Positions 18,401 through 64,000 of a stretch of 64,000 bases of DNA are shown here, in pieces. Location of the stretch: positions 6,842,745-6,906,744 of the forward strand of contig NC_052404.1 in assembly GCF_009389715.1 (NCBI RefSeq), in the 5' to 3' direction. Below the pieces are notes generated by a model. That model had not been told where the DNA came from. It worked only from the letters and a program-made list of their open reading frames with translations, and searched no databases. This DNA comes from Phoenix dactylifera (Eukaryota; Streptophyta; Magnoliopsida; Arecales; Arecaceae). A program made the position numbers and the translations under genes. Position 1 is the stretch's first letter, and each line of letters starts with the position of its first letter.

Positions 18401-21400
18401 TAAGTTACAAAACTATCTATTTCTTTGACATCAATAATCAGTCATGTGAAAATAATCATTACAATAATTAGCTGAACTAATTCAGTAGTATACGAAAGAG
18501 ATCAAAGGCTAAATCGCAATTGCCATGGTGAAGCGGCTTCTGAAGATCTTTCTATTCAATAACAAGCTTATCTCCAGCTAGTATAAAGTCGAACAACCCA
18601 TGTAGCATAGAAACACCATTCCGTTTATTGCATTAAATATGTCAGAAGACTCTAAAAGATAGGCCAAAATAAAATAAGTTTTCAGAAGGGAAAATTGTTT
18701 ATAGCAAGGAAAATTAGAAGAAGCTGCAGCTAACCTCCAATATAGAAAGTGATTGAACCTTCTTTATATTTGGTACGACTAAACCATAGGTAGTAGCCAT
18801 AGCAACACCAATATTGTGGCAGCCTACACAAATAACAAGTTGAAGCAATAGGCTTGATTTGAAATAACAAAGAGCTATAACACAATGACAAAAGTAATAA
18901 ATGACGTGATGCCAAAGTCTTCGTAATGGACAACCTGCCACAAGTCTGCATCAAGAAGAGATCTAGAAGCCCTCAAAAAAAGCATATGAAGCATGTTTTT
19001 GTTCATTTCTGGCTCAGCTTCGGTAGTTGAGTGCAGTCTATGAGACTACATATATACCTTTTTAAAGAGATTATTGTGAATAAAGAAACCATGTCTCCCT
19101 ATTGGGTCTGGAAATAACAAACAAAAGCAAAACTCTTGTGGAAGCATATATTGGCAAAGCGAACAGAAACTAATCCCATATGTAAGGGGGAAAAAGGAAC
19201 CCGATATGACTACATTACAGGATATAAGCTCAAATCTGAAAATGATGTCACTTAAGAGAATACATTTATAGCACCACTCATGAATGAAAGTTGTTGTATA
19301 TAGTCAAGTTACAATTCATTGTAAAATGCAGTTCACTAGCAATATTTTTAGCATACAGATATATGTAACTACTATCTAACATGTGTCTGTCCTTTTTTCT
19401 TAACTTTTGAGAACGTGGGATCTTATAAGTGTCGTATTACAGATAACATAGGTGTAACTGAATTGTTTGACATTACCTGTCAGAAAGATAATACAAAGAA
19501 CTTAGACCTAGTTTGCTTAATATCTTAATGTACAGTCATGCTTTCAGCTATTCATTTTTCAAGGATATTTCTATGAAGATAATGTTTGTAGGATATTAGC
19601 TCAATGATATTTTTATGTATTTGATAGAAAAAGAATATACTGCATGAATAGGCTGCAACATATATACCTGCTTTATATCTATGTTGAAATGTAAACTATG
19701 CACATCATTGTCAAATATCATCTACTGGAAATACTATACACACCAATGGCAGCACACATAATTCCATGCACCAGCATGGTATCTCTTATTTGTCCAAGAA
19801 AGATATGCATAAGTATGGACACAGACTGGCATAAAATCAAATATATAATAGAGTGTTAACTGCAACAGGAGAATGGCTGCATACCTTTCAGGATGACCTC
19901 AGTAGTTGCCTCATTGAAGGAGCTATTTAACAGGGGATATTTACTCAACGCCATTGAAAGAGACTTTATGAAAAATGGAAGAAAGGTGTGTTTCACATTT
20001 GGAGCTGTGTTTTCATTCTGAAAGGCTGCTTTAAGTTCTATAAGAGCATCACAATTTATTTCTTCTAGATAATGAAAATGTGGGACTTTGGCAGACATGG
20101 TCATAGATTTAACCATAGACCTCTGAAATCCCCTGAAACATAAAAATGCTATCCTCATTGATTTTGATGGATGAGGATTCCAATATTTATAGAGTTAAAA
20201 TATTGATTAGATATAAAACACAACTTAAAGATAATTCAAGAGTGCTGAAATAGCTTGTCCTCTTGAGAAGAAAGATATGCAAACATAACAGCACATTGAA
20301 AAGGAACATGACAAACTCTATAAATATAATCTCTTGACACAATCTTTAGTAATCCAAGTTTATGGTTTAGTTGCCAGGATCGAGAGTGGGTGCAGGTGCA
20401 ACAATACAAGAGATCACCTAATAGGAATTATTGACTCAAAAGGATTCATAAAGTTGATATAAATAACTAGGTTTTTGCACAATGCTTGATTGTGCCATAG
20501 ATAATATGCACAGAATGTAATGGGAGTTTGTTTAACCAGCTGTGAAATGACCAATAAAACTTTTTTATTTTATTCTCATGCAATAGGGGAAAAAAAGGCA
20601 TTTTAATCATTTGATTGGTGGTAAAGTAAACAAATTCCAAAAAAAGCAAATAGGGCAAATCAATCCTTAAATCACCAATGAAAATGAATATACACCAATT
20701 GACTTTTTCAAATTTTATTGGAGTAAAGCTATAGGGGATGTATTGGTTGTTCACAGGCATATCAAGACATCCTCAATCCACCATCTATTATAATCCTAAC
20801 CATATCAAGTATGCCATTAGCTACAACTTTGTGAACAACCTTTCTCACTATTTTTGATTATATGAATCCATCTTAAATATTGGAGAATCTGTTGTTTGAC
20901 AACCCATTTCTTTCATGTTGCAACCTCACTGTAAAGCATGATCCTTAGACTCCAGCTGGAATTCCTCTCTTGAGCAGACACCTTGCCGTCATTCCCATAA
21001 CCTTGATGGAGCTCTCTCAGACCTTCAACATCAGATTCTCTATCTGGATTTAATTTACAAGGTGCAACATATGCAAGAATTGAGAGAGCTACACCAGAAC
21101 CCTATGCCAGGATCTGTGCCAAAATCCTATGAGGGCAAAAAAAGAATGGTACACCATCTAAGTTAAGAATCCACATAGTTAACCATGATTAAGATGACCA
21201 AAATGCCGAATGCTTAGGAGGTTCTTTTTTATGCATTAAATTATTAGGGAACAAGAGGTTTTTAATGAAAAGAACTGTAGTTTGCATGTGAGGACAGAAA
21301 TTGAGCATTCACCCTGTTGATTATGATTTACACATCTTAAAACACATAAACCAAGTTGTAGCGGGTTACAAATATTTTTCAAGCTATATATCACATGTCA

Positions 21401-24400
21401 TCACGTTGTTTGAAACCACTAAGTTTATAACCATGCTAAGTAAGAAATGTCTAAAATGTGTGGATTTTGCGTTTTTGTTTTTGTATATTATGATTAACAA
21501 AGTAATGTTCAATTTAGATGCCAATATGTATTTTTCATCTATTGCATATGCATTCATAAAATATTGGTAGAATAGTGGCTCATCAGACAGAGTCAAAATC
21601 ACATATATCTCCATGTTAAGATTACTTTGAGCATTACCTCACAAAATCAGCTATAGTTACCTGAGAGGAATTGTCGTATCTTCATAGCATTTTTCATCTA
21701 GCATGTGCATGTGAAATGCCTTCCCTTCTTTCAACAGCCCAGGTTCACCAACATTGACTTGTGAAAGGGAAGGTCGTTCTTCCTGAATACCCTTGCTAGC
21801 AGCATAGTTTAAGACATCTTCTTTCAAAACCCTTCCATCTATTCCTGTTCCTTGAATATCATTTATGTTTAGACCATACTGCTTTGCAAGATGCCTAACA
21901 AAAGGTGTAGACAGAACTCCCTTAAAATCCTCCCCTTTTCTCGATGATCTTTGAGAATCTGATTCACATAGGTCAGAATTTAGTGATGTTGCATCCTCAT
22001 GACACTCAGATGTAAGAGGACTCTGAGCATCTTCCGCAATTATCTTCAATAAAGTTTCACCAACCTGCAAATGGAATTCTATAACTCACATAGATGACAG
22101 GGTTTCTTTGTACTTGAAGCAATCATATATCATTAGAAATAAGGGGAAAGGAAAATTGCATTTGCTTCAGATTCTGTGACAGGACAAAGTAGCAATGCAT
22201 AAACATGCCAGCATTTGTCTACATATAACCAGTTATAAATGCATTTTACCAGGAAACATCATCTAAGACAATTTTCAAGTCAATGCTGTATGAATGAACT
22301 TAGATGAAATTAAATACTAGTACAGAATGAAAACCTCCCTTTTTTGATGAAAGAGTTGTACTGAATGACAAATTACAAATTTGAGAAGACTTGCTCTCTT
22401 ATGAGCATAATCTTACGTGCATAATCTTATGTAAATCATTGATTGTGTTTTGGTTATGAATTTGTTCCAAGGGTTCACTGTGACAGCATATAAATTTCAG
22501 AAACTTGACATTGTAGAAGCTTGAGAAAAGTTTGTGTTAAAATCCTAAGCTATTTTACTAAGCCTAAAAGAACCAGCCCACTGATCTTCAAATCAATGAC
22601 ATCTCATCATTCAAGAGGTCAGTAGTCATATTCCAAATGGATAGAAGTCTCGACTTCAACTAAAGGAGTCAACTATGAGGCCTAATAAATGAAAAGGATT
22701 TAAATTGTTCAAAATAAGGAATCCAATGTAGGAGCAAAAGCTCCCCTGAACACGAGATCTGATGCCACTCTACCTTGACTATATCACCAGGAACAAAAAG
22801 AATCTGAAGGATTTTTCCTTTATAGCGGCTTGTGATTTCAATGGTTGCTTTGTCGCTCTGTACTTCACAAAGCGGTTGAAATTCTTCTACCTCCTCACCC
22901 TGACAAGAAAAATATTAATCAATTGTCAGCTATAATAACAACATCTAGATGGTTAGATATATAGTTAATTAGATGACAGCATTGAAACTGAAAATATGCC
23001 ATCCACCTCCTAGTCATGGTATGGCCAAAGCAAATTACAGCAATTGAAGAATCTGGATGCATGCAGTTCGCCTAAAACAAATTAGAACCAAAATTTATTA
23101 AGAAATAAAAGATATATCTACACATTAAGGCTTTGTTTGGTTTGGAATAAGAAAAAGGGGGTAGCAAAAGTTATGCCACAAGTTATTCAAATTTTTGTTT
23201 GGTTACAATTTTTAGAACAACTTTTTATAAGTTTTTTGGTCCAAAAAAAGTAAAAATTAAGTATAAATATACTTATAGACTAAAGAATAACTTATGACAG
23301 CTCTCCCATGGTATAAATAAGACTACCATAAGCAAGTTTGACCAGCATAATTATTCCTAGGTTATGCTTGTTTCCCAAAAGCTGTTTGGCAAGTATAAGG
23401 CTTATTCCAAGCCTTATATCTGCTTCATGCCAAGCCAAGCATTGTCTAATAGCGAAACAGCAACCGTATGTTCAGTATTTGAATATGTTAGTTCGAGTCC
23501 ATGCCATGTCACATCTCAAGTATAGGCTCTCCACAGATGCCTTTGAGCCTCTTGGTTTGGGTTCTACAAAGTGATGCAAACACAGTAGAAGAAAGCCTAG
23601 AGGTTTGTGCCTTGTGACTTGTCTTTTTACAGGAGGCAGATCCACCAGCTGGCTACGTAGTTTCACTAACAATGAAAGAGGAGGGATTGTCCTACTTATT
23701 TTTGCAAGATGTACGTGAATTATCCAATGTCAACCTTAATTATGATATATCACCGCATCCTTCAAAATTTGCCTAGAAAATATGATATCAAAATGCTAGA
23801 TGCTTACAGAATTTGCTAAATTGACCAAATCCATATCCTTTAGCTGGCTTTTTTACATGATTTTTCCTTATTTTATACATATTTGTTTTGTATTGAAGAG
23901 ATCCTGTGAAACTTATACCTTATGGCTCAAGGGCTAAAACTCACCTCCTTAAGACCCTAGCCACTTCTTTAACATTACACATGCTACTTCAAAAACATTT
24001 ACATCATTATGTGTGTAAATATCAGATATTAGTACATTACAAAATAAAGACCTTTATCTAAAGTCAAAATGAAATGTTCATTTACAACATAGCAGTTTGT
24101 TGGAATTTTGGCTGAAATGTGGTGAAAGTTAACAACCATGAAAATTCTCAATGTTTTACCCTTAAATTTTGTAATGCACTTCTTTTTGAAAGAATTCATT
24201 AAAATTATGAGATTATATCAAAGAGATTTGTGCTGTCACATGTTTTTGTATAAATGTAAATATTCACAACAAGTATTGACACCAGAAAATTGTATGAGAG
24301 CAAAACTACCTAACACATGATGCTTATCCAAAGAGGCTTGCACGCTCTTCTCATCTATCATAGTTCTTCTTTACAAGACCCAATTCCATGTCCCTTCTGA

Positions 24401-28233: not shown

Positions 28234-31200
28234 TCATTCTAAGCGTTCCATCTGCGATAGAAGATTATTATACATGGATCAAGAATGGACCAATAAAATG
28301 TTGAGATATAGGTCAGAAAACATGAAGATCACATGAGAATGAACACCAAAATTGATGATACCACTGCATATGGTATATAAGAAATCAGAAGGCTTTTCCT
28401 ACAATTGCTATCCCAAGCTATCCCTCAATGACTGGAAAATGAGTATAAGAAGACTCTTCTCATGTACATGGCCAGTGACAGCTAGCACTAAGACAAAAGT
28501 TGATTCTTGAGCCTCGCTTCCATGGGCGAATGCAGATGTCACAAAAGAAAAATGGAAAATATTCCTGGTCAATGGCCCTAAGGGCTTACAATGAACTAGA
28601 CAGCCGCATGTAAGCACTGGATGCAGATCTGGAAGATTGAAATGCTATTTCTATCTCACAAGAACTATGTCGACATAATTGCAGGAATCAGCTTTCTAAA
28701 GTGCTTGGGTATCATAATTTTCTAGGCTTGTTCATAACAAAAATAAATATTCCATCAGCCCATTTTGATAACAAGGATGAAACCCAACAAACGACTTCAT
28801 CAGAAAAATAAAGAACAAATACCTTCCAAAGGCCATCATTTAAATAGTGCATATTATCAACTCCAATTCCCTTGTTGATAGAGCTACTGCAGCAACAAAC
28901 AGAGTACATCGTTCAACACAAGGAATGTGAAAAAAAAAGGAAGAAAGATATCAAAATCTGAAAATAACCCTTTTTTTCTGCTTGAGATACTATTTGATGC
29001 CAATGTATCATTCATGAACAAAGAGAGGCATGCATACACTAGCAGGGCACAAACAAGTTCACAATGGAAATTTTCAGTTACATAATGATGTAACCATTTA
29101 TATAATTACAAGTGGGATAAGAAGAGTATGGGTACCTTTAAATGCACTCTTTTAGTGTAAGACATGAAAATGTAATAATTTGTTGATACAAACGTTGCAA
29201 GATTGTTATAGAACCCAATTAAGTTCAGAAGCATAAGTATTTAGGAAGAGTATTCCAGTCAACACCATAACCACAAACCCACCCAACACCCCATCCACGG
29301 CGCACGCATGCGAGAGAGAGAGAGAGAGAGAGAGCCCAAGCTATGCATGCAGGGCTGGAGTGCAGTTTTAGTATTTCATACAGTACCATAACTCCTCTTT
29401 CTCCACCATGCAAAATTCGAACAACATTTTACCATGCAGTATAACTCGGCAGTTAGGTATCCATAAGTCATGCTTCTGCAATAGAATCCTTAGTATTACA
29501 GTCAATTTTATGAATGCAGTCCCTAGGCTGCATCACATTACCTATATGGTTATCATAAATGGCCAGGCTGCATATAGGCAGAATAGGCATCCCACTTAAC
29601 AATACCCAACCACATAACTTAGCATAATGTGCATGTATAACCAACTGCATGTGCCCCTGAATAATTGTTTGCATACTTCATTCATGCCATGCGGCCCCTT
29701 GACAATCCGGATACCGTGGCCACCTTTCAAAATACCGTCCATTATTATTATGACTTTTGTTTCTCATTACTGCCTTCCAACCTTCAAGTGGTTTTCAAGT
29801 GAAGAACAGAAATGTAACATGATTCCCTAGTTTAAGGTAAAGCCTACCGAAACTCAAGAAGATTTCATGCCTACATAATGTTTAGAACCCGTGAAGCTGC
29901 TACTTTAAACAGGAAACACCCCCAATGCCTACCACCCTCACGTGCATATCCCATAGTATTATTAATATGGGTAAGGAGAAATTAGGATCTCTTTGCTGAC
30001 CACTGTTAGAAATCATCAAGTAAACAACTGAATGACCTTTTCTTCGTGGTGGATTTCTTACATTATTTGGACAAAACATTTGAGAATGCAATCAACAACC
30101 TTATGGCTTCAAGATTTACATGTAGAAGCAACCTGTTCACTAGTTTAACCTCAGTGATCCTTGGGAAACTTACGAGAAGTAAAATTAAAGTATTATTCAG
30201 GCCAAGCACAAGCAAATGTCGAGAATTAAAATCAAGAACCACTTGTCAATGGTCGAATAGCCCAAACAACACAAATAGTTCTTCCATTAATTTCATCCAT
30301 AAATAAGAGAAGCATCGTTCTCTCTAATTTAGAAAATATAGGTTTCCTGACTAGGGAATCTTCCATTTTTATCAACATCTTTGATCAATTTCTCACCCTG
30401 TATACTAGTAATCACCTATACAGCCTTTTTTAATCTAAGGAGTAGCTTATAAAACAATATAAGTAAATCAACTAAGGATCATTTAACCATGAATTTCCAT
30501 CTTTGCATCTGTAAACTATCAATTGATATAGCTTAAACTACACGAGGAGCTTATAAAAGTGGCCTTTATTTATAGAAGACTAGACACTGATCATGAATTG
30601 AAATTGGTGAAAAAATGAGAAAATATGAAAAAAAAAACATCATCACTCTTAAATATATATATCTGAATAATTAGCAATTGATATGTAATTGATCAATGGA
30701 ACCTCAAAATATATTACAACTACTTAAAGGGGGGAAAACCAATGTAAGATAAAACCTACATATCTTTTGCTGTCATTTTTGTATATCCAATTGCCAAAGC
30801 ATGTTGTTTTCCTTCCGCCATTATGGCCTGAAAATAATGAAGATACAGAAATCAGCCATTATTCCCTACATCACAGCACACAGAAATATTACTTGTACAA
30901 AAGTAATGTGTAATAACTAATAAGTATTTTAAAGGCTGCATGACTACCTAAATCTAAACACATTGTAAGTTGTAACAGCAACCACTCAACCAAATCCTAT
31001 TGGTTGATATGCTATGTCAATACCTCCTGAGGGGGAGATAACCCAGAAATTACAGTCACTGAACAGTTGTACTTGATGGCAATTTGTTCTATGGCTACTC
31101 CATGCATGGCCTAGCAAAACTGAACATGATGCCAATTTGTTCTATGGCTACTCCACAAAGTAGCCTACCAACTGATGTATCTGAGTTGACCAGTTCACCC

Positions 31201-34200
31201 TTGACTTGTTGAAGTCATAGGGATTAAATTTTACATTCTATAACTACAATATAAATATAAATCAACTTTTGCTATGACCTGTAAAAGAGAATCTTTACCA
31301 CAGGGGTTTCTTCCAATACTTCATCATCCAAAGCGCCACCAGGCGATGTCAGACCAGGACACATAATGTTAGCACCAGAAAGGACAAATTTGATCGCGCC
31401 TCTATCCACCTGAAACTTTTTCATTATATCTGGATCTGAGAGAGCATAAGAGAAAGGATGAGAACCTAAAGAATTACAGGGTTAGACTACTACTCAATTA
31501 CTACTCAATATTAAGGCATCAGTTTGACTCAAAGAAGGTGCAATTTTTAGTGATCACATCACCCATGGGGAATATACAACAAATCATTTGCTGCTCAGCC
31601 AACTCATAAAACAAAAGGTAACCTATACATTACAAAGCTTGGAAACTAACCTTATACGAAACAAAAAAAATATAGGAAGAATAAGAGCCAAGGAGATACT
31701 TTACATTGATGAAGTAACCTCAATGTTGGCATGTAAGGACTATCTCGAACATTGAAAAATAGTGGTACATTGTTTTTTTTTTTTTTGGTAAATCGGCCGC
31801 TCACACATGACGAGCGTGAAGCTGGCCTACAAAATCAGAAAACAAAATGCTACGCAAGGACGCAGGCACAGCATCGTGGCCTGTCCAAAAAAAATCTCCC
31901 GAATGATGAGCCGCGAAGGAAGCAACCCAGTCAGCCGCACCGTTTGCCTTCCGATATACGTGCGAGGCTTGGTAGGAGGCAGTCTCCCCCAACGCTCTAC
32001 GAATATCGAGAAGCAGCGGCCGGTCGTCGACTGAGTACCCCCCTCCCCGGATCCACCCAACCACCGTGGTCGAGTCTCCCTCGAGAAGGAAGTGACCCTC
32101 ACCAAGTACCCGCCTCGCATAGGAGACACCCTCCCAGGCCGCCTGAAGCTCTGCGGTCGCCACTGATGAGTCAAAAATCCTGCGTCCACCTGCCGCCACA
32201 AGTCTGGCATCATGATCCCTAATGATAAATCCCACACCTCCGCAGCTCCCATCCGCTGATACACTGCCATCAAAGTTCACCTTGAGAAAGCCAGGGGGTG
32301 GGGGCACCCAGGATACAAGTATCGTCCTGGACGCTGCAGTAGCAGAATGGGGGCCCCAGATGTCCCTAGCCAACCCAGTAGGTGTAGACTCAACAGCGCC
32401 GATGATCTCCGCCGCAAGCCGTAGAGCTCGATCCGCCACCAACCTCGGATGGTGGCTCTCACCATCGAAAACCCATGTATTCCTCCCCAGCCAACAATGA
32501 TAGGCCAGGTAGGCATCACGAGTCCCCCTCTCCTCGCGTACAGACCCCCGGACCGAGGCCTCCAAGTGACGGAGGAACTCCTCAACGGACGTCCACAACT
32601 GCCTCTGGTCGGGCTGAGCTGAAGCATGTCTCCATATCTGGCTAGCTCTAGGGCACTCAAAAAGAACATGATAGATGGTCTCCTCTGTCGCCTGACAAGC
32701 TCCACATCCGGCCTGGACCCTCACTCCTCGTCTCACCAAAACCCCACAAGTAGGTAAACACCCCCAAGCCACCTTCCACAGGAACAAGGCCACTCGAGGG
32801 TGAATGTGCATCCTCCAAATCCAGCCGCAGTCCATCTGTCTCGCAGAGGGCCCTCTACCAATTGCTAAAAGGTCCCGAACTCTCACAGTCGTCCCACCTG
32901 TCCTGCTCCATACCCTCCTATCCACTGCCTCCCCCTCCGGGATCGGCAGAGCTAGGACGCGCTCAGCAAGGTGCTCCCCGAATACCTGTCGAACAAGGCT
33001 CGTGTCCCACCTCCGCTCCCCCTGGGCAAATAAGGCACACACTCTACGTCCCTCCATCCAGCCATGGTCAATCTCGGTGGGCCACCCCTGCAAAGCTACC
33101 TCAGCCAACCATCTGTCCTCCAAAATGCTGATCGACCGCCCATCCCCAATCTCCCACCTGATCTCTGGCAACACTCCTGGGGCGCGAACGCAGATCTCTC
33201 TCCAAATAAAGGAAGCTCCTCGGCCAGTACGTAGGACGTAGTGGGGGGCAGGGTCCCCGTACTTCGCCCTCAACAGTGAGCCCCAAAGGCCCTCAGGCTC
33301 TAGAAGAAACCTGGCTGCCAACCTGGTCGCCAATAACTCCCTCCGCTCGACCAATGAGTGAATACCAAGTCCTCCCCTGTCAGTCGGCTGGCAAATAGAC
33401 TCCCAAGCCACCATGTGAACACCATCTCTGCCTCCCCGCCGTCCCCAGATGAAAGTGCGAAACATCCTCTCCAATCCCCGGATCACAGCAAGAGGGACCA
33501 GGGTATTGGAGAGCAAATAAATGGGGATAGAGCTCAACACTGGCCGTACCAAGATGACTCGGCCCATCATCGACAGTGCACCCACCTGCCAACCCTCCAA
33601 ACGGTGGGTGATGCTCCGCTCCATGGATGTACACTCCCTCCGACGTAGACGGCGTCCCGTAATAGGCACCCCGAGGTATGTAAGGGTCCCCACCTGCTCT
33701 CCAATCCCTAGTAGGCTCATAATAGACTGCCTCGCCCCATGGTCAGTCTTCGGGCTAAAGAAAATGGCAGACTTGGTCAGATTGACCTGCTGCCCCGACA
33801 TACCACAATATGCCCCCAAGATCCTACTAATGGCCCGGGCTGATCTGCTCGTCGCGCGGGCTAACAGTATACAGTCATCAGCGAATAGCAGATGCGAAAC
33901 CCTAGCCGTCCCGGCCCCCGGGCCATAGACCTGCAACTCCTGCTCATGGACTGCCTGTCTGAGTGCACGGGACAAAGAATCTGCACATAGAATGAACAAA
34001 AGTGGTGACAAAGGGCAACCCTGTCTCAATCCTACCGACGACTCGAAGAAGCATGATGGTGAGCCATTAAACAATAAGGCAAAGGACGGGGACAATATGC
34101 AACCGAGCACCCATCTGACCCACTGTGGGTGAAATCCAAATCCCTCCAGGCATCGCCGCACAAACTCCCATCTCATCCTGTCGTATGCCCGCTCCATATC

Positions 34201-37200
34201 AAGTTTGACTCCCATTAAGCACCTGCACTTAGGCGCTTTCTGGAGGTCAGTCATGAACTCATGAGCAATGAGGACGTTATCCGAAATGGAACGCCCCCCA
34301 ACGAAAGCCCCCTGCTCAGGGCAAATGAGTCTGGGTAGGATACCCCTCATCCTCTGGACTAGTACCCTCGCCACCACCTTATACAGGGTGGTACACAAGC
34401 TGATCGGTCTGTAGTGGCTCGGCTCAACAGGGTCCTGTCTCTTCGAAATCAGTGTAATGAAAGTCCTCCTCCACTCCACAGGCATTGCTGTCGACACAAA
34501 AAACTGCTGGACTGCCGCGGTCACCTCCTGTCTGACTATGTGCCAATACCTCCTGAAAAAGACAGGGGGGAAGCCATCTGGGCCCGGGGCTCTGTCCTCG
34601 CGCAAAGACCAAAGGGCCGACTGTACCTCCTCCCCGGACACTGGACTGACCAAAGCTGCGTTCTCCTCCACTGACACCTGCCTCCCTGGTACCGGTCCGC
34701 ATGCACCTCCATCTGTACCTCCAGACTCGGTCCATCTATCACGAAAAAACTGCATCAAGGTCCTCCTGACTGTCTCCTGATCTTCAGACACCCGCCCACT
34801 GCTATCCCTAATCCGGCCAATCCGGTTCCGATGTCTCCTGATGATGGTCGACTGGTGAAAGAATCTGGTATTCCGATCCCCCTCCCTAATCCACTGGATC
34901 CTAGACTTTTGCCTCCAAAACACCTCCTGCTGCCTCAAAAGGGAAGCGTGTCCAGCCAGTAGTCCCCTGAGCTCCCCCTGATCCACATCTGAAAGACTAC
35001 CCCCTCTGTCCTCAAGTGCCTGTAACCTAGTGATGGATGCCTCCGTCTCCTCCACCCTCCTGAAGATATTCCCCACCTCCTCCTTATTCCACCTTTGCAA
35101 TCAGCGTCTGGTTAGCTCAAGTTTCCGGGTAACCCTATACATCACATCCCCCTAACCGGCATCTGCCACGCCTCTCTCACCACCTCCCACGACCGTGGGT
35201 AAGACAACCATACCTTCTCAAAGCGAAAAGGACAATGAACTGGAAAGGTATAAGAGGTACTCACCAATACTGGGCAATGATCAGAAGCAATCCTGGGCAG
35301 GTGGCGCACCAAGAAGTCCGGAAATCTCTGAAGCCATCCGGGCGTCGCGTACGCTCGGTCAATCCGCTCCCAAACACGTGCCATCCCCAGCCTGTTGTTG
35401 CACCAGGTGAAGCGCGGACCAGTGAAACCAAGATCCGCCAGCCCATTGGACTGTATAAAGTCCTGGAACTCTCTGACCTTAATGTTGTTGGAGAAGACCT
35501 TACCCCCTCTCTTGTCCTCCGGGCAGTCAATGCAATTGAAGTCCCCTGCCATTATCACAGGGTGGCCAAGCTGAATGAGGCTGGTGGCCTCCTCCCACAA
35601 GACTCTCCTCTCCCGATGGTCTGTACTGGCATATGTGGCTAAAATGACCCACGGAGGCCCAGCCCCCTCAGAAATAACCAGGATCACCTGTTGGTTGCAC
35701 TTGTGGAATACATCAATGCCAACACCCCCCAACCTCCATAACACAATGATGCCCCCTGAGAGGCCCCGTGAGTCCACCGCATATGTCCCCCATGATCGCG
35801 GGATGGCACGCCTAGCTCGTTCCAAACTAGATCCCGACAGTCGGGTCTCAAGCAAAACACAAACATCTGGGTCATGCAAACTCACTAACCTACGGAAGGC
35901 CGGCCGAAAGGAAGGCTTCCCCGCTCCCCGACAGTTCCAAAGAAGAACCTTCATAACAACACTTGGGTGTTTTGATGCATGGCCACCCCTTCGGGGTCTT
36001 GCAGCCCTCCCTCCTTACTACACGCCGCACCCTCTTCCGGCCCGGCCATCTCAAGCACCACCTTCAATTGGTGTACCAAGGCTTCGTGTGCAGTTCCTCG
36101 TGGTTGCTCGGTGCTCACAGGCTCACTCTGAACTTCCATCTCCCTGGGCTCCTTTGCCGTTCCCCCCTTAGGCATCTCACCTAGGGTCTTCTTCCCAGGT
36201 GAGCAGACTGTGGCAGTGAGCAAAATTTCATCCCGCACAGTCTCGGCCCCATCACCGACCTTGGTTCCTCCGCAGACCGACTTGGGAGAAGACCCAAGCT
36301 CCGCTGACGGGAGGCCACCTCGCCCAAGCTCATCCACCGCCCGAGCATCCACCCCGCCTGGCGCCACCGGAGGCAGACCCCCATCTCCACCGCCCGCCGC
36401 CATACCCCGTCGCGGAACGGGATCCGCAGAAGATCGCTTCCGGTTGAAACCACCCTTGCCGCCCCCGCCGACCGGCCTCCCAACTCGCGGGCCTTCCGCA
36501 ATCGCCGGAGACGCGCTCCGACTCCTGAAACGCCGCCAGTCGCCATTCTTGCTCGCCGCCCCGGCCACCGGCACGCGGAACCCCGGCACGAAAGACCCAG
36601 GCACCGGAGGGGCCGAGTGGTCTCGGGCCAGACCTCGCTCCGGCCCGAGGGCCCCCCGCCGCTTCGAAGGGCTTCTGGCCCTTTTCATTGGGCTGGGTCC
36701 GCTGTTCAGGCTGGGAGGGCCCAGCCCAGGCCCCTGATCACAGGCCCCAGTCTGGACCGGGCCCGCTTGGGTTTGGACGACTCCCTGCCGAGTTAGACTC
36801 GGTGTCGACTCGGTCCGCTGCACCGGTGTCGCCGCCACGCCCAGCACCGGTCCGACTCCTCCCGCTCCCTTCGCCGGCGAGATGCGCCGAGCGACCTTCT
36901 TAGGCTTCCGCCAGCCCTCAGAGTCCGGCGATGACTGAGGCTCGCTCGCCCCTCCCTTGGCCGGACCCGGGCCCGAGTCGGTATGAACCGGTTCCCGAGT
37001 CGGCTCGGTGCAGGAAGTCGTCGTCCCCTTTGGCCTAGCCGGAAACCTAGCCCCACCGCCACCTCGCTGTGCCGGAAACCTAGAAGAGGTCATCCATGGG
37101 CCGAAGACTCTCGGCCTACTCCCCCCGGGTAGGTTTCCCTCCGTAGACGACGAAGAGCCGCCAGGAGCTCCATTAACCATCGGGATCGATCTCCCTTCCG

Positions 37201-40200
37201 CCTCGCAGAACCGGCACTCCCCCGCCTAATGACCAGTGCGGGCACAGAGGTAGCAGAGGCTCGGCAGATCCTCGTAAACGAAGGCCTGCCAGAACCTATT
37301 CTTCCCCCATTGAACTAGTGTACCAGGAACCAGTGGGAGGCTAGCGTCGATCTCGACCTTTGCTCGGGCATAGCCGACCCTCCGCCTCTCGCTTGACACC
37401 GCATCAAGCGTAAGTGGCCTGCCCGCCGCCGCCACCATCTCCAGGATGGATGCATTATACCAATATTCCAACGGCAGCCCCGGTAGCCTAACCCAGACAA
37501 CTGTCCGGCTAACCGAGTGGACGCCCGGGGTGAAATCAGGCCGCCAGTCCTCCATCGACATCAGCTGGCCCCCCACCAGCCAAGGGGCCACTGCCATTGC
37601 CTTCGCCCGCTCCTCCCCTGACCCGAACCGGATCGTCAGAACACCCTCCGCCATTGGAAGAACCTCCACCGGTTGCAGGAGCTTAGCCCGTCCTCTGAGT
37701 TCACGAGCCACAACCTCTGCCGGAATGCGCCGCCCCAAACTCTTGGCGTGCACAGCTCTCCCCTCCCAATCACTCCTCGCCTGCATCACCCTCTCCGTCG
37801 GCAACGTTACCACCCGGGGAAAACGACGCTCGAGCTCAGCCAGCTCCTCCTCGGTAAACCGATGGCAGCCCATCTCCGGTTGGGACGGAAGCCCTCGCGC
37901 CACCCCAACCCACCGTGGAGTGGTCTCCGCCCGGCCTGGCAAGGGACCATCCCGATTCCCCCGATCAGAAAGCCCCCCGGCGGCTGCCATCCGGCGAACC
38001 CACCAGCTACTCGGTGGAAAGCCAAGTTCCCCTCTCTCTCCTCTCTCCTCTCTCTCTCTCTCCTCTCTCCTCAACGGTGTTTTCCATCGTGGTACATTGT
38101 TCACCACCACAAGATTGAGATGATTTTGGCTTAAATAAAGAGAAAAATGCATTAATCAAGATGTCCAGTTTAGTAGTGGATCAACTTTCATCATTTCATA
38201 CATGGACAGCTAGAAAACAAGTCGCTAAACAAAAATAATGAGAATGAGTTGGCATTTTCAGTAAGAAATCTTTCAAAATTTAATAATCTGAACATCAATG
38301 CTTTAGGATGCCCAGAAAAGTTCCAAATGGTCCAGCAGACAATTTTTAATGCCTTACACAAAATTCTACAACATACATTATTGACCAGTAACATGAGAAA
38401 CATGGAAGATACATTGGTTGACATAAAACAAACTCCAAAATAACTTAGATATTGCAAAATAAATCTACCCAGAAAGCCACGTTAAAAGGGATATCCTCCT
38501 TGTATCACTGCCAGATGTGCAGCATTACATTCTATGATTCAACTCATATTTATCTGATCTTATTCCTAATCTGAAACCTCCTTGCTTAAAGGAAAAACTT
38601 TTTGCTGCTCCATATCTCTATGTTGCACATACACTTGCAAAGACAAACCTAATATGTAATAGCCCTCCTGTACTTAGAGAAATATGATTGGATATGTAAG
38701 ATTGAAATGTAAACCTTCTCTTAATGTGCTAAATACTGAATAATACTGAAATCGGTGATGTGCCTTAGAGACTAATCTATAAGACTTTTTTTTTTGAACA
38801 GAACTTTTGGACCTTAACAATGTCTTGGCATAATAGAATTAATGGGATCTTAAGATCCAAAAAAATAGCTTGGTTTTTAAAGTTGATATTTTGATCTAAT
38901 GCTAAACATCTAAAGTTTGAACTAAAAATGAGATACCAACTTTTAAACCTTAATAATTAGATTTTCTATAAGCATTTTTTGTTGAACTCAAATGAGGAAA
39001 GGGGGTTTACTAACTTATTTACATGTAATGTCTTTAGTAAATGTCCTCTTTTCTATTTACTTCAATAATATTCAGTAAATAAGTGTTGTTGCTGAGGGCC
39101 CTGTTGGAATTTAACCTACTGAGTCATCATCTTCTTGACCAGCTAAGGAAGGAAAGGAAATATAGTAAGAATAAGAATAAGAAGAAGGAGGAGGAGGAGG
39201 AGGAGGGGAACTTTTATGGATTTCACTGGCTTTAAACATTCAGTAACTTCTTGATGCATAATTCAAATAGTCTTTTCCAAAAACTATGGATTTCCTTGCA
39301 AGTGACTATTCCACGCCTTTAGAAATTAAGGTTTTAAAATTTGCTTTCTAATTTTGAATCTCTTAGTCGCTCCATGTTTACATGTCTTTAGAAATTCACA
39401 ATCTTAGTATCTGTTTGAAAATCGCTGGACTACTTTGCCAGTAAGTCTTCCACGTGACTTGGAACCAATTTTTTTTAGTTTCTTTGAAACTTACAGTTAA
39501 TATCAAGATTGTGTTATTTTGAAGTTCTAATCATCACAATTGTTTTCAACACTTGCAATCTTTAATATTTCGACTCTCCAACTGAATTCAATCTCCAAGT
39601 TGCATTCAAACTTGCATATTCTCAATCTGAAATGTGGTTGATTTTAAAATTATTTGTTTTCATTTGAAAACTCTAGACGTATGTGTGTTTTGAAATTGCT
39701 ATTATAAAATTAGTGTATCTCCTTCGATTTGAAACCATATATTTATTGAAATTCTCTAAATGCTAGGTCAGAAATAGTGTTTATTCTCTTTGGAGCTTTT
39801 ATTAATTATTTAGTATGAAATTTGTGAAATTTGTTAAAGTATGAAATATTGACATAATTCTAAATAGAATTGAAACCTTAGCTGGGAGGTATATGAGTGA
39901 CCCCACTCAAGTTGTGGCAAGGAACTCGATGGTATTTGTGGTCACATCTGGATTACCAATGAAAGTCTAAATGGACCCACAACCAGCTGGTACACAGGTG
40001 GCCTCACTTGATTTATTGATGAGAAAGCACATGCTATGTGGTATATGTGGACCCTTGGCCGAGTAGCCTGAGTACAGCCGAGGATATAAGTGACCTCATT
40101 TGCATTAGCAATGAGGATAATAAGTGGCCTCATTCAAATTATCGGAGACAATATAAGTGGCCTCACTTGCGTTTGCAATGAGGATCTAAGTGACCTCAAG

Positions 40201-43200: not shown

Positions 43201-46200
43201 GCTCTGACATTTGAAACAAAAGTTTCATTCAACAGAGCCAATGAGAGCATCAAGGAAGCAGATAACATGATAAGTTATCATTTTCTTTATCACCGTTTTT
43301 AAGTTTTTGCAGCTTTAAGTTCACAATTTTGCTTGGCAAAGACTTTCATAACTTCAATTAATGTGACAGAACAATGATCATAATTTCCTTTTCCAAAGAA
43401 TGGGAGGTTAGCTTGGATAGCTCTTCCGCTTGCTGTTGGGTGGGCCATTTTAAGAAAGATTTTATAGGACAATTCTTAAGTTTGAGGACGAGGGAATACA
43501 TGACTTTGGACAATAAGTGTGGGATCCAATACCACATACTTCTATCGATTCTTTTAGAAGAAATTTTAAGGAGATGGAAGATTATTTACTCAAGGATAGT
43601 TTCTTCCAGATGCACCTTGTCGCTGCCTTCAGATAGCAGGAATCTAGACCTCTTCTACTTTGTTTCGAACAATGTAATAATAACCAAATGCTTATGCATG
43701 AAAGGAAAGGTTTGGTTTGCAAATGGAGACTGAGATGGAAAAGATATTGCAACATATTTAAAGGAGCTCCACACTGAAGGGAGAATGAAATGCATTTGTA
43801 TCAGTAGACAGTGTCAGTAAATAAAGAAAACTTTGCAAATGAAAGAAGAAAAGGCAGATGCGCTAATAAGCACTCACATATGGAAAACTGACATGGAGTC
43901 AGGTTGATTTGATTAACTAGCGTTTGGATTTGATATACAGTCTTCGCATATAAAAAATAATAGTCAACTAGACAGAAGAATGATGATACGAGTTAGCATG
44001 AAAAATGTTGACACTATCAAATTTATGGGTTAAACTGTTAAAGAATAAAGTTAAGGCGAACAATTGGTTGGTCCATAAGCAGAAAAGATCTTAAGAAATC
44101 AACATAGCATCAAAAGGCAGCCATTGAAGCTTCTCATGTGAAAAAGAAGGTTTCTCCTATTTAATCTATTGACTTAGAAAACAGAGCAGCATTAGTGAAG
44201 GAGCAGATCTAATTGCGAAAAATAATTGTGAAAGAAGTAAGAGAATTTCTAATTGCAGCATGCTACCAAAGACACCCTTGATGCTGGAGACACTTTAGAC
44301 CTGTTATAAGTGCAAGTCCATATTCATGACAAGGTAATATTACTGATCAGCTGCGGATAATTTAGTGTTACACAATAAGGCTAGCAGTGATGTATGCTAA
44401 ACTAGGCAAGATGGAACACTTTGAAGCATAATATTTGAAAACTAGCCAACACGAAAACAGAATATATGTAGTTTTGCAGCTCTATAGCTAAATGGATATA
44501 GTAAGTTAAAAAAATTGGTTGTCAGTTATCATGATCAAAACTTTTTAAAATAGCTAATTAACCCATTCTCAACCTGTTTTCCTTTATCATGCCCCAACTT
44601 ATATATATATATAATGACTTTATCAATTCAAATTCCAGCACCAATATCCTTTTGTTAGCATGACTAAACTACCACATAACAAACAGAGTTACCACTGATG
44701 TTATAAATGAATCATCAATAATCACTGATATATCTTGCGGAAAAGTACAAAATAATTGAGGAAAGAATGGACGGACCATTTTGCAACAATTAGAGGCATT
44801 TTCTTTGGAAGCATGTCATCCAATAGAGGTTCAAGGCCAGGATACTGCAAAACAAGTGATCTCGCCAATGATACAAACAAGAGTGAAACCTATTCCTTCC
44901 ATCTGATCAGAAGTAAGCTCAAAGTAAAAAAGGAAAATTACTTTTCAGATTTAACACAAACCTCATCAGCAATACTTTGTCGAATCTTCCTTTGTACAGA
45001 TGCCTTCACTTGGTTTTGTGCAGATACGTCTTCAAAGGAGAACCTTCAAAGAGAAAGTGAAAGTTAGTTGCTAATCAATGGCATACATCAAAAAACAAGA
45101 ATTTTTTGCAAGAAAAGACATAATCGTAATTATCAAAATCTTGTAATAGAAGTTCCCCTGGAGGAAAGATCTTAAAAGTTAATTTCTGTTTATAACAATA
45201 AAAAAATATGTAATATTTATTTGGGTTTGCATTTTGGATCTCATTGGTCCCTTTCACTGTGGATGATCCACATTCACAATCCCCGCTATTACCTTGGAGT
45301 CTTGGACACTCCAAGTTTTTTATGCTTGTAGAAGCCATCTCCAAGAACTATCCCTACTATTACCTTGAGGTGTATTGAACCAAACTGACAGAGAATCGGA
45401 ACAGTTTCCCCTGTCGGTTCGATAAATTGGCCGAACAGGCTCTAATGGATTAAACCCCTTCAAGCCGGCTCAGTTCGATTAACCACCCCCAACCACCCCC
45501 CCCCACCCACCCCACCCCCGCCCCACACAGCTCAATTCAACTAAAGGAACCCCTCTGCCCCCTTCATCTTGCTCATGACCTTCACGTCCCTCTCAAGCTA
45601 GCGACCCTCCCTCCCCTGCGCTCGTGATAGTCGACTACTAGCCCTCCCCCCACCAGCATCAAAGGTACGCATCCTCCCTGCTCCCTCTCTCTTTCTTGCG
45701 GGGTTTGTGTTAAGGTTTCAGGCCCTCTCTCTCTCTTTCAAGCCTCGCACCCCTAACGACGAGGGCTTTCGAGCCCTCCCTCCCTCCCTCCCTCTCTGAC
45801 TCTCTCTCTCTTTTCCTCTCTCCTTTTCCATCTCCCCCTCCCTCTCTGACTTTTTGTCGATATGCCCTAAAATGGCACCGTACAGATCCATACCGTGCCA
45901 AACTGATCATCCGTCAATACCCCCTCTGGCGTCGATTCAACAAAACTTGCTGCTATAAATACTCTTTCTAAATTACTTTTGGCTCAATTATTCTAATTTA
46001 TATAATTATGCTTTCCTATTTGTACATAGATACGGCTGGTTAAGTCTATAAATAAAAACTTTAGTTGAAACTTTGCAAGTATGTACATTACACTATCTCA
46101 TTCATCAACAGAAAAGGTTCTTCATAATCATGCAGCACAAAGATGCGCCATAAGTTTTTCATAATCATATAGAATTTTTTTCAAAAAAAAATATGTTGCA

Positions 46201-48133
46201 AATGGTATAGAATTCAAAGAGTTAGCACCCCCAAAAGAAAAGGGAACTCAGCAAAAGGCCATGACTATAGGACTAAATTAGTGCACATGTCTAATGGGTA
46301 GAGGCCTAAGGGGATGGACCTAACATGAAGAGTGAAGGCAAGGAGGAAGAAGATGTCAAGTGAATAGTCAATCCATACAAGACGTCACCTTTCAAGCTAA
46401 GAATCTCTCTGCTGCTTGCCAAAAAAAAAAAAAAAATCAAATCTTACTTAAGAACTTTATCAGTTTAATCTTCTATTAACAAAATGTTCTCGTGTTCTTC
46501 TATTTTCAAATTCGCTATGGGCAGTATATGCTTTCTTTTTTATCTGTCTTCTCTATATTTAGCAATGCAGCCTCTAGTCAAAAATCAAAGATTTCAAGTT
46601 AACAGTTAATCATAGTGAAGCAGTCAGGAATGTTAATAATCTGCCACATGTCAACAAGGTAAATTGAAGTTTAAAAGGTATGCTCCATACAATTGTCTCC
46701 TACAAAGACATATGTTCATGCCAGCCCACTTTGATTCCCCTTTTGTTGAGATTCACGTACTAAAGATTTACCTCTAAAATTGAAGTTCAAACCAAGGACT
46801 AAAAAATGTACTTTAATGCTCAAATGACCATTTATCATAATTAACAATTAACTACTGCAGGCTTTGCACCCATACTCTGCAATAATCACATTTTTACCAT
46901 GTGACATCTTGTCTTTGTGTTTTTCTTTTTCTTGGTTGGTTTTTGTGGGTGGGGTGGGGGTGTGGTCCTCTCAATAGTCCCTTCACAATGGTAAACCCCA
47001 AATATTGGTTTCATCCTCATCAGTCACCTCACCACATAATGAATCACTGGCAAATTTGATCCCTTTTTAAATGCCTGCTCAAATGTGCCCAAGAATCCGC
47101 CCTTCTCTTCCTACCCCCACACCAGCATCTTTGCATGAATTAACTCCTCCCTCCTCATCCTTGACTTCTCAGATTACCGACCACATATCCAAAGCGCAGA
47201 TCATTTATTATATACCATGCACGCAAATCATTTTTTCAAAGCTCTCTCCATGCCAATTCTCTTACCATATCTGCAACACACGATATCACTTTTCTGCCTC
47301 CTGCTCTCAGTCAAAGCATCTGTTTCCTTTTCATATCAAATTCATAAATTTCTTCTAAGATCTCAAATAACTCACATTGGAGCCCTCATCCTTATGCTGA
47401 CAACAGCTGTATACCTTTAATGCACACTCTGCTACTCCAAATACTCCAGTTCCAAGCTCTCTAAACACGTTCCCTCAGAACAAAATGGTCCCTTGAACAA
47501 GATAAGCTATCTTATATCATATAATTGACAACAAAGACAGATAAGAATACAAGATTTGACGTTCTACCATGATATCACCTGCTGATCTACAATCCATAAC
47601 AAAATATTCACTGAGGCATGTTGTAGTTCAGTGCTGATATTAAATCACATTGCAAGAGATCCAAACTCTCTCCTGTAAATAATATCTCACATAAAATTAC
47701 CCTTAAAACTAACTCACTATAACAGTCTCCAGTAAATACCGGATCCAAACTCTTAATTTTGCGACCAACATCCAACTCCCACAGTCCAATCTCACAAAGG
47801 AAAAGAATATATATTTCTCCGGCAAAGGATTCTATGCAAAAATGACAGAAAAAAAATTGAATAGATGAAAAAGAATCAGGATTTGAAACCCTAAAACCGT
47901 GTGCATTTGAGTCTAGACTTTAAAGAAAACCTCGAGCAAATTAATTGACCAACAGAAACATAATTAGCAGAATCAATAGACATTCCCGATATACGGTAAA
48001 AAAGATCTTTCAAATAATTTTATTAAAAAAAAAAAGAAAGATCGTTTATATATATTTTTTAGATGATTTTTTTAAAAAATGCCCTAAAAATCTTAGGATA
48101 AAGAAAGAAAGGTAAAGCTCACTTCTTAAACAT
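28234..48133 (-). CDS. MCTS1: MCTS1/Tma20-type translation factor gene (PUA domain), coding exon 4 split by a LINE
   Basis: MCTS1 partners with DENR in translation re-initiation and recycling of 40S subunits (family knowledge). Minus-strand coding exons: 48133-48123, 45043-44962, 44844-44777, exon 4 (38129-38089 continued at 31761-31705), 31435-31299, 30827-30760, 28886-28823, 28251-28234. Leaving out the LINE and one duplication copy, the parts sum to 181 aa, the size of human MCTS1, with exact phase at all seven junctions. Recognisable blocks are [59 protein letters not shown], the PUA domain [20 protein letters not shown] and [35 protein letters not shown], and final MERLE. Odd points: an 11-nt first coding exon, an 18-nt last one, and a 6.3-kb LINE within exon 4. 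As drawn this allele cannot make normal protein unless the LINE is bypassed, so it is likely a recent loss-of-function allele or haplotype. Confidence 0.93.
29312..29334. repeat. (GA)n microsatellite
   Basis: About eleven GA dinucleotides in the last-third introns of the MCTS1-type gene. Confidence 0.9.
31057..31165. repeat. Short imperfect duplication in an MCTS1 intron
   Basis: The phrase CAATTTGTTCTATGGCTACT appears at about 31080 and again at about 31133, about 53 bp apart, with related bases around it (CTAGCAAAACTGA versus CTACCAACTGA). Confidence 0.7.
31762..31774. repeat. Left copy of LINE target-site duplication
   Basis: GTGGTACATTGTT. The same 13 bases recur at 38089-38101. Its right edge merges with the poly-T tail, so the last one or two T are ambiguous. 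Confidence 0.9.
31801..35100 (-). CDS. LINE ORF2, reverse transcriptase and RNase H part
   Basis: A 1099-codon open frame after the TGA at 35103-35101. It holds reverse transcriptase blocks [56 protein letters not shown] and the catalytic [12 protein letters not shown]. Next comes a zf-RVT region ([20 protein letters not shown], then CGACQ and HVLFEC), then an RNase H domain with its acidic residues in [22 protein letters not shown] and [11 protein letters not shown], and the late [15 protein letters not shown] motif. It ends 14 bp before the poly-A tail. It has no ATG of its own at the left of the frame and is best read as the rest of one ORF2 with the endonuclease part, separated by a frameshift and a nonsense codon. 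Confidence 0.95.
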   Translation of the reverse strand: MQRWNKEEVGNIFRRVEETEASITRLQALEDRGGSLSDVDQGELRGLLAGHASLLRQQEVFWRQKSRIQWIREGDRNTRFFHQSTIIRRHRNRIGRIRDSSGRVSEDQETVRRTLMQFFRDRWTESGGTDGGACGPVPGRQVSVEENAALVSPVSGEEVQSALWSLREDRAPGPDGFPPVFFRRYWHIVRQEVTAAVQQFFVSTAMPVEWRRTFITLISKRQDPVEPSHYRPISLCTTLYKVVARVLVQRMRGILPRLICPEQGAFVGGRSISDNVLIAHEFMTDLQKAPKCRCLMGVKLDMERAYDRMRWEFVRRCLEGFGFHPQWVRWVLGCILSPSFALLFNGSPSCFFESSVGLRQGCPLSPLLFILCADSLSRALRQAVHEQELQVYGPGAGTARVSHLLFADDCILLARATSRSARAISRILGAYCGMSGQQVNLTKSAIFFSPKTDHGARQSIMSLLGIGEQVGTLTYLGVPITGRRLRRRECTSMERSITHRLEGWQVGALSMMGRVILVRPVLSSIPIYLLSNTLVPLAVIRGLERMFRTFIWGRRGGRDGVHMVAWESICQPTDRGGLGIHSLVERRELLATRLAARFLLEPEGLWGSLLRAKYGDPAPHYVLRTGRGASFIWREICVRAPGVLPEIRWEIGDGRSISILEDRWLAEVALQGWPTEIDHGWMEGRRVCALFAQGERRWDTSLVRQVFGEHLAERVLALPIPEGEAVDRRVWSRTGGTTVRVRDLLAIGRGPSARQMDCGWIWRMHIHPRVALFLWKVAWGCLPTCGVLVRRGVRVQAGCGACQATEETIYHVLFECPRASQIWRHASAQPDQRQLWTSVEEFLRHLEASVRGSVREERGTRDAYLAYHCWLGRNTWVFDGESHHPRLVADRALRLAAEIIGAVESTPTGLARDIWGPHSATAASRTILVSWVPPPPGFLKVNFDGSVSADGSCGGVGFIIRDHDARLVAAGGRRIFDSSVATAELQAAWEGVSYARRVLGEGHFLLEGDSTTVVGWIRGGGYSVDDRPLLLDIRRALGETASYQASHVYRKANGAADWVASFAAHHSGDFFWTGHDAVPASLRSILFSDFVGQLHARHV
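35142..35954 (-). CDS. LINE ORF2, APE-type endonuclease part
   Basis: A 270-aa frame from ATG 35954. It carries the apurinic-like endonuclease motifs [27 protein letters not shown] and [10 protein letters not shown], which nick target DNA to prime reverse transcription. The start overlaps the ORF1 stop as ATGA (35954-35951). The normal frame would continue into the reverse transcriptase, but the G run at 35152-35148 is one base short, so translation ends after PVRGM. With the base counted in, the frame reads on for about 15 codons ([15 protein letters not shown]) up to the TGA at 35103-35101. Confidence 0.93.
   Translation of the reverse strand: MKVLLWNCRGAGKPSFRPAFRRLVSLHDPDVCVLLETRLSGSSLERARRAIPRSWGTYAVDSRGLSGGIIVLWRLGGVGIDVFHKCNQQVILVISEGAGPPWVILATYASTDHRERRVLWEEATSLIQLGHPVIMAGDFNCIDCPEDKRGGKVFSNNIKVREFQDFIQSNGLADLGFTGPRFTWCNNRLGMARVWERIDRAYATPGWLQRFPDFLVRHLPRIASDHCPVLVSTSYTFPVHCPFRFEKVWLSYPRSWEVVREAWQMPVRGM
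35951..37990 (-). CDS. LINE ORF1 (gag-like, DUF4283 and zinc knuckle) with one internal stop
   Basis: RNA-binding gag-like protein of the LINE. Frame from ATG 37990 ([15 protein letters not shown]) to TGA at 35953-35951, 679 codons with one internal TAG at 37228-37226. The first half is a DUF4283-type domain ([19 protein letters not shown] to [14 protein letters not shown]), then the CCHC knuckle [17 protein letters not shown], where the TAG takes the place of one spacer residue. The second half (from [10 protein letters not shown]) is Pro/Gly/Ser/Arg-rich and low in order. The TAG probably arose after or shortly before insertion. Upstream of 37990 the frame stays open into host exon 4. Confidence 0.88.
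38030..38072. repeat. CT-rich tract in the LINE leader
   Basis: Runs of CTCTCTC and TCCTCTC on the plus strand (GA-rich in LINE sense) just inside the 5' end of the LINE. Confidence 0.85.
38089..38101. repeat. Right copy of LINE target-site duplication
   Basis: GTGGTACATTGTT, identical to 31762-31774. It is part of MCTS1 exon 4 and on the gene strand encodes the end of VVNNVP. Confidence 0.95.
39182..39208. repeat. (GAA/GAG)n microsatellite
   Basis: AAGAAGGAGGAGGAGGAGG-type trinucleotide run in MCTS1 intron 3. Confidence 0.85.
39890..40200. repeat. Degenerate minisatellite
   Basis: Phrases of the form ATAAGTGRCCTCAYTT and GCAATGAGGAT recur at irregular 40-50 bp spacing (clear near 40087, 40119, 40152 and 40180; older relatives further left). 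Copies have drifted far, so unit edges are approximate. Confidence 0.6.
41588..41762. mobile_element. hAT-type MITE in MCTS1 intron 3
   Basis: 175 bp. Left end CAAGGTTCGCCATCTTG; reverse complement of right end CAAGGTTTGCCATACTG. The flanks carry a perfect 8-bp duplication ATCTTTAG (41580-41587 and 41763-41770), the hallmark of hAT insertion. The interior has repeated GGTAC/GTACC words and no coding sequence. Confidence 0.85.
41860..42943. mobile_element. Non-autonomous Harbinger-like DNA transposon
   Basis: 1084 bp. Left end GGCCCTGTTTGGGGGAGCT; the right end is its exact inverse (AGCTCCCCCAAACAGGGCC). Flanked by the 3-bp repeat TAC (41857-41859 and 42944-42946). The interior has an AT-rich middle and no transposase; sub-terminal AAAGTACTTTTGGAGGGCC-type words recur near the right end. 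Superfamily assignment rests on end sequence and 3-bp duplication only. Confidence 0.75.
45484..45535. repeat. C-rich low-complexity tract
   Basis: CCACCCC-type repeats in MCTS1 intron 1, followed by further CT-rich stretches (CCCT repeats near 45773-45795 and CTCTCT near 45796-45855). Confidence 0.8.
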
Positions 48134-57952: not shown

Positions 57953-58170
57953 GCATGCCACCGGTGCAACGTAGTGGTTTGGTAACGCAATTTAGGTCGT
58001 CTAGTCTAGAAAATACCTCCCTAAGCTTCAATCTTTCCCCTACCTACCCTTGCAGCTTCCTAACACGTGGTCTTCTGGTTCTTTCTGTGGATAAAACCAC
58101 AGAAACAAACAAACAAGCGGAGAGCGTGTAGAAATAGGAGGAAATCTAGAGCAAGAGGAAGAAAGAAACC

Positions 58171-58683
58171 ATGGGGATGATGGGGTCTCTCCTCCTCCTC
58201 GTCGTCCTCCTCCTCTGCATCGCTTCCTCCGCGGTAAGCTCACCCCTGCCCATCATCTTCTCCGATGATACGAAGCCGAGCGCCTACGAGGTGCTCGAGT
58301 CGTATAACTTTCCCATCGGGCTGCTCCCCAAGGGCTGCCTGGGGTACGACCTCGACCCGGACACCGGCGAGTTCTCCGCCTACTTCAACGGCACCTGCAG
58401 CTTCTCCCTGGAGGGCTCCTACCAGCTGCGCTACCAGGCCACCGTCTCCGGCCGGATCTCCGCCGGCCGCCTCTCCGACCTCCGCGGCGTCAGCGTCAAG
58501 GTCCTCCTGTTCTGGATCAACATCATCGAGGTCACCCGCCACGGCGACCAGCTCGAGTTCTCCGTCGGCATCGCCTCCGCCGACTTCTCCGTCGACAACT
58601 TCTACGAGAGCCCCCAGTGCGGCTGCGGCTTCGACTGCGACGGCGCTTCCTCTTCCGCTTTTGATCGATCAAATCTTCTTTAA
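58171..58683 (+). CDS. Secreted DUF538 family protein
   Basis: Single-exon, 170 aa. Residues 1-24 form a signal peptide (MGMMGSLLLLVVLLLCIASS then AVSS), followed by the DUF538 domain: SAYEVLESYNFPIGLLPKGC, YDLDPDTGEFSAYFNGTCSF, YQLRYQATVSGRISAGRLSD, GVSVKVLLFWINIIEVTRHG, ending FYESPQCGCGFDCDG. These are the expected family blocks. The function of DUF538 is not settled; members are stress-linked and predicted to be secreted. The coding part is strongly GC-rich (C or G at most third positions) against AT-rich flanks. The ATG at 58171 is the first in frame; two further ATGs follow within four codons. The C-terminal tail after the last Cys is short and low in order. Confidence 0.93.
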   Translation: MGMMGSLLLLVVLLLCIASSAVSSPLPIIFSDDTKPSAYEVLESYNFPIGLLPKGCLGYDLDPDTGEFSAYFNGTCSFSLEGSYQLRYQATVSGRISAGRLSDLRGVSVKVLLFWINIIEVTRHGDQLEFSVGIASADFSVDNFYESPQCGCGFDCDGASSSAFDRSNLL

Positions 58684-60473: not shown

Positions 60474-60476
60474 GGG

Positions 60477-63900: not shown

Positions 63901-64000
63901 GGTCGTGCGCCTGTCGCTTGCCGCCCGACGGGATTTCTCCGTGGCCAGCTGCGATCGTGTTTCTCCTCCTCTCCAAGCGTCGCCTGGGGAACACCAGATG

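Follow-up and report, generated by a model that had tools for sequence, protein, structure and literature searches.

Structure and identity of the interrupted gene

The window considered here, a stretch of 64,000 bases without any N from contig NC_052404.1 of the date palm (Phoenix dactylifera), contains on its minus strand a gene of the MCTS1/MCT-1 type, the fourth exon of which is split by a long interspersed nuclear element (LINE). Eight coding exons run from 48133 to 28234. The first, at 48123–48133, comprises MFK plus 2 nt and is followed by the donor GTGAGC. Exons 2 (44962–45043, 82 nt) and 3 (44777–44844, 68 nt) precede the interrupted exon 4, the first part of which (38089–38129, 41 nt) ends in one copy of a 13-bp duplication, whilst the second part (31705–31761, 57 nt) bears the donor GTAAAG and contains the glycine-to-serine substitution G75S. 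Beyond this lie exons 5 (31299–31435, 137 nt), 6 (30760–30827, 68 nt), 7 (28823–28886, 64 nt) and 8 (28234–28251, 18 nt), with the last encoding MERLE and the stop codon. All seven introns begin with GT and end with AG, and the joined coding sequence measures 546 nt, i.e. 181 codons and a stop.

The preliminary description had assigned this gene to MCTS1, and the assignment is borne out by a match of the joined protein to human MCTS1 (PDB 5ons) over residues 1–178 (E-value 3.5e-63), as well as by the presence of the Pfam Pre-PUA and PUA domains in a protein of the size expected for MCTS1/MCT-1 (Tma20; ~181 aa). Human MCTS1 (PDB 5ons and 3r90) belongs to the same protein family over residues 1–178, whereas the palm copy is interrupted by the LINE. 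Amongst the matches listed (best 120 of 2,320), identity to monocot MCTS1 proteins reaches 94 % (Zingiber). With regard to function, MCT-1 binds DENR and the 40S subunit and, with DENR, promotes re-initiation of translation in Drosophila and human (PMC5972666). Any such role in plants would be an extrapolation from animals; it seems little described there, and amongst the titles of open-licence papers listed, none names plant MCTS1 or DENR.

Exon 4 is divided into 41 and 57 nt by an element of 6,314 bp, extending from 38088 to 31775. At its two edges stands the 13-bp sequence GTGGTACATTGTT, which occurs exactly twice on the plus strand of the window, at 31762–31774 and 38089–38101, and whose reverse complement has zero occurrences in the window. 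When the flanks are joined with one copy of this duplication removed, a 98-nt exon 4 and a frame of 181 codons and a stop are obtained. The 3′ poly-A of the element is 14 residues long (31773–31786), with the last 2 overlapping the duplication copy at 31762–31774, and from the position of this end it follows that the LINE lies in the same sense as its host gene. In our judgement, an identical 13-bp pair at the edges of a poly-A-tailed element, within an exon that is otherwise continuous, is no chance match. The coordinates and the reconstruction confirm what had been described before, namely a LINE within exon 4, flanked by an identical 13-bp duplication, the removal of which restores the 98-nt exon and the 181-codon frame. 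The target nick of L1-type elements falls at a T-rich consensus, e.g. TTTT/AA; at the nick inferred here the antisense strand reads TTGTT/CACC, which is only partly T-rich. The event is a fresh instance of an ordinary and already known type of mutation, a textbook LINE insertion.

The inserted element

The element (31775–38088, minus strand) is, judged from its sequence, a full-length plant L1-type LINE. Its first open reading frame (ORF1; 37226–37990, minus strand) opens with ATG at 37990, closes with an in-frame TAG (37226–37228) and encodes a DUF4283 domain. This stop lies inside the zinc knuckle and truncates it, the match to the knuckle (E-value 3.5e-4, 20.6 bits) being under the Pfam cut-off of 27. 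The remainder of the ORF1 frame past the TAG (35951–37225, minus strand) closes with TGA, and no Pfam domain was found within it. ORF2 is likewise broken. Its first part (35142–35954, minus strand) starts with an ATG at 35954, encodes the endonuclease (Exo_endo_phos) and is closed by a TGA at 35142–35144, whilst the second part (31801–35100, minus strand) harbours RVT_1, zf-RVT and the RNase H-like RVT_3 (PF13456), stands in a different frame from the endonuclease part and has the stop TGA ahead of it at 35101–35103. At least two lesions are therefore located around 35101–35144, and the LINE as a whole contains at least three reading-frame lesions.

An ORF1 with DUF4283 and a CCHC knuckle, together with an ORF2 for endonuclease and reverse transcriptase, is the arrangement of plant L1-type LINEs; the RVT_3 domain at the end of ORF2 is as in related plant LINEs, and many of the Phoenix LINE relatives are likewise listed with it. 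The element further possesses the 3′ poly-A and the target-site duplication of this type, without long terminal repeats (LTRs), and no repeats within it were detected in a DNA self-comparison of the window (E-value 1e-8). The previously proposed LINE identity is hence upheld by its domains. Intact open reading frames, which are a feature of autonomous, active elements and are not required for L1 membership, are lacking, and this copy, as it reads in the assembly, is not autonomous now. Its closest relatives amongst the matches listed are date palm (Phoenix) LINE proteins, with 54–59 % identity in the first five. Of these proteins, LOC120104815 (P0122) is 58 % identical over 1,095 residues and shares the ORF2 domains (endonuclease, RVT_1, zf-RVT and RVT_3), whilst a further one (P0123) displays 67 % identity in the endonuclease part (229 residues compared). 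LOC120104815 and LOC120104769 (P0121) represent a diverged subfamily relative to the inserted LINE, and differ from it in that the ORF2 of the latter is interrupted.

At the junction of the two reading frames, the ORF1 TGA (35953–35951) overlaps the first ORF2 ATG (35954–35952) as ATGA (35951–35954, minus strand), an arrangement which suggests that ORF2 would be translated by termination and re-initiation. The parallel with the host gene is curious, since in animals MCTS1 itself acts in re-initiation.

Age of the insertion

The insertion had been called young in the preliminary description. This is plausible, but the signs on which it was based, i.e. the identity of the duplication and the soundness of the other exons, carry little weight. 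With a rate of 2.6e-9 substitutions per site per year, the 13-bp pair would still be identical with a probability of 0.93, 0.71 and 0.51 after 1, 5 and 10 million years (My), respectively; at 6.5e-9 the corresponding values are 0.84, 0.43 and 0.18. Dating from the identity of the duplication alone was dropped as too weak. For palms, PMC7822834 cites an ADH rate of 2.61e-9, and its authors applied 7e-9 to LTR elements.

The lesions of the LINE permit a second estimate, for which three lesions were assumed to have arisen after insertion, with 0.1–0.2 indels per substitution and a measured nonsense fraction of 0.037. Rates of 2.6e-9, 6.5e-9 and 1.3e-8 were tried; the faster two, like the indel ratios, are assumptions. 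The resulting neutral divergence of 0.0022–0.0038 per site corresponds to 0.17–1.5 My, with Poisson limits of about 0.04–4.3 My; the LINE may be even younger if it was copied with lesions already present. The probability that the host frame (546 nt) and 28 splice bases would have escaped any disabling change is 0.69–0.72 at the central age and 0.34–0.39 at the upper age limits. On an evolutionary scale, the insertion is likely to be recent.

Predicted consequences and alternative explanations

The LINE would have entered coding exon 4 by target-primed reverse transcription, with 13 bp of the exon being duplicated in the process. A transcript that runs into the element would continue from exon 4 in frame through the leader of the LINE into ORF1 and terminate at the ORF1 stop, the predicted read-through product being of 354 residues (MCTS1 1–67 and 287 from the LINE), without a PUA domain. 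Alternatively, transcripts entering the LINE would be cut short or degraded. Skipping of exon 4, performed in silico, shifts the frame, with a stop after 53 residues, and was rejected as a rescue given this loss of frame. As a fusion without PUA, degradation and a frameshift by skipping would each deprive the allele of its usual product, no normal MCTS1 would be expected from it. We consider it likely that a sense L1-type LINE, inserted fairly recently into MCTS1 exon 4, leaves the allele without normal MCTS1, and on the present sequence a null allele is the best reading. Either the insertion would then be fixed, a paralogue having taken over the role of the gene, or an empty allele would still segregate at the site. 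As a separate observation, one open reading frame (38155–37226, minus strand) spans MCTS1 exon 4 and LINE ORF1 across the junction, and a transcript left unspliced would encode a host–LINE fusion protein.

Several points weigh against the loss of normal MCTS1 through a recent insertion. A strong-looking acceptor near the 3′ end of the LINE, in conjunction with donors in its 5′ region, is predicted to allow an in-frame spliced product, and the term null is therefore less than certain. G75S could signal that selection on this MCTS1 copy was relaxed before the insertion. Finally, an assembly error or a mixture of haplotypes is conceivable from a sequence of this kind, although the precise duplication argues against a mis-join.

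The splicing alternative treats the LINE as a new intron of 6,177 nt (donor 38003, acceptor 31827), such that the allele would still make an MCTS1 of 231 aa; we regard this as unlikely. The candidate cryptic donor, CTG/GTGGGT, lies in the 5′ region of the LINE (38002–38003, minus strand, with the predicted intron starting at 38003), whilst the candidate cryptic acceptor, ATTTTGTTTTCTGATTTTGTAG (31827–31848, minus strand, with the exon resuming at 31826), sits in the tail of ORF2, 52 bases from the 3′ end of the element. By a home-made consensus count, which provides a crude scale, acceptor 31827 scores 22.5, the highest value amongst 510 sense AGs in the LINE and the same as that of the best native acceptor, and donors 38003 and 37913 score 6.0 versus 4.0–5.5 for the seven native donors. 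Paired with this acceptor, both donors preserve the reading frame up to the usual stop, for products of 231 and 261 residues, respectively, and of the 6 donors scoring at least 5 in the first 1,400 nt counted from the exon 4 start, 3 maintain the whole frame. Frame compatibility is, however, expected by chance in about one in three cases per donor, so that 3 of 6 is close to chance; the two top donors, 90 nt apart, are not independent, 49 of the 510 AGs score at least as high as the weakest native acceptor, and donor 38003 is surpassed by six internal donors of the LINE (6.5–7.0). Plant introns tend to be A+T-rich, whereas the G+C content of the LINE is 54–66 %. As for the protein, the spliced product would carry an insert of 50 residues, bordered on each side by a copy of NNVP, in a beta-hairpin turn, where it might be tolerated. 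In the predicted model of the Musa homologue, strands 58–63 and 66–72 flank residues 64–65; the mean predicted local distance difference test (pLDDT) score of this model is 73, with a block mean of 85 for residues 61–70, and the four other models predicted scored lower (44–67). That the LINE acted as an instant 6.2-kb intron, and thereby created a new natural MCTS1 variant with an in-frame insert of 50 residues in the hairpin turn, is more doubtful still. Exact removal of the LINE by splicing was rejected, as the 13-bp duplication has a GT but no AG in register.

A different order of events is proposed if the gene is a relaxed paralogue from whole-genome duplication, already dispensable before the LINE arrived, with a near-neutral insertion that became fixed. 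This overlaps with a null allele created by the LINE, and we view it as a serious possibility, albeit one that we would sooner doubt than accept. The p whole-genome duplication is common to palms (PMC7822834), and an MCTS1 paralogue is therefore a reasonable expectation and its presence in the genome plausible; within the 64-kb window, DNA self-comparison (E-value 1e-8) revealed neither a second MCTS1 nor a second LINE copy. The three LINE lesions may also have left enough time for a relaxed paralogue. In the gene itself, conservation was counted over 104 of the 120 listed relatives and the query, leaving one out and using positions at least 97 % conserved; 16 proteins with identity below 75 % or a short alignment were left out. 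The query shows one departure at 95 near-invariant positions, namely G75S, encoded by the second part of exon 4. As 102 of 104 relatives, human MCTS1 and every one of the 28 sequences in one alignment retain glycine here, the substitution fits a relaxed copy. A single departure is nevertheless ordinary: amongst 105 sequences, the query included, 59 have none, 18 have one and 28 have two or more, which places the interrupted exon, with its one substitution at a near-invariant residue, within the range of the other listed plant proteins. G75S could be older than the insertion (as in a relaxed copy), later than it, or simply a tolerated change. Stops, frameshifts and splice lesions, as might be looked for in a relaxed paralogue, were not found elsewhere in the gene, and the earlier statement that the other seven exons are undamaged is right with respect to stops, frame and splice dinucleotides. 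An artefact of assembly, in which the LINE was placed by a mis-join or represents one haplotype of a mixed consensus, draws on the fact that a single assembled sequence is the basis of this analysis. We hold it to be highly improbable, for the same 13-bp duplication at both edges, with poly-A at one of them, is the signature of target-primed insertion and is not made by a mis-join.

Relation to known insertions and significance

Within palms, the Karma element of oil palm is reportedly a LINE in an intron of the MADS-box gene MANTLED/DEFICIENS, and is said to act through methylation. The two cases would be alike in that a sense LINE within a palm gene affects, or in date palm would affect, processing of the host transcript, and differ in that Karma is said to be intronic, whereas in date palm a coding exon is split by the LINE. 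A title that names Karma and the mantled variant (Ong-Abdullah 2015) is cited in PMC10241880, where mention is made of an oil palm gene with alternative poly(A) sites dependent on whether a transposable element in an intron is methylated. LINE insertions in plant genes are known more widely, an example being Si7PPO of foxtail millet, where the insertion was tied by the authors to a trait difference, the phenol colour reaction (PMC8742101). That case concerns another gene and species, whilst the palm gene encodes a translation factor, without a known trait.

The insertion marks a natural plant MCTS1 allele that is probably null. Should there be no second copy and the insertion be common, the plant would be able to do without MCTS1; segregation at the site would provide both wild-type and null siblings for study.

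Other features of the window

A tandem array of about 7 copies of a 121-bp unit, with 97 % matches, occupies 63043–63905, downstream of a gypsy-type Transposase_28 frame (60459–61439). At 53197–54155, a stretch of ~477 bp is present in two nearly adjacent copies that are 92 % identical. On the minus strand, frames with 2-oxoacid dehydrogenase acyltransferase (E2) and E3-binding domains are distributed over 16446–22085 and are probably exons of one gene, whilst a Copia-type frame of 568 open codons, from gag to the start of integrase, reaches the window edge (3–1706). The plus strand carries an intronless DUF538 gene (58150–58680). Together with the LINE relatives, its protein points to a palm as host, although amongst clusters at 90 % identity neither oil palm nor date palm matches it exactly: it is 86 % identical to a protein from Elaeis guineensis (99 % of the length aligned) and 82 % identical to one from Phoenix (81 % aligned).

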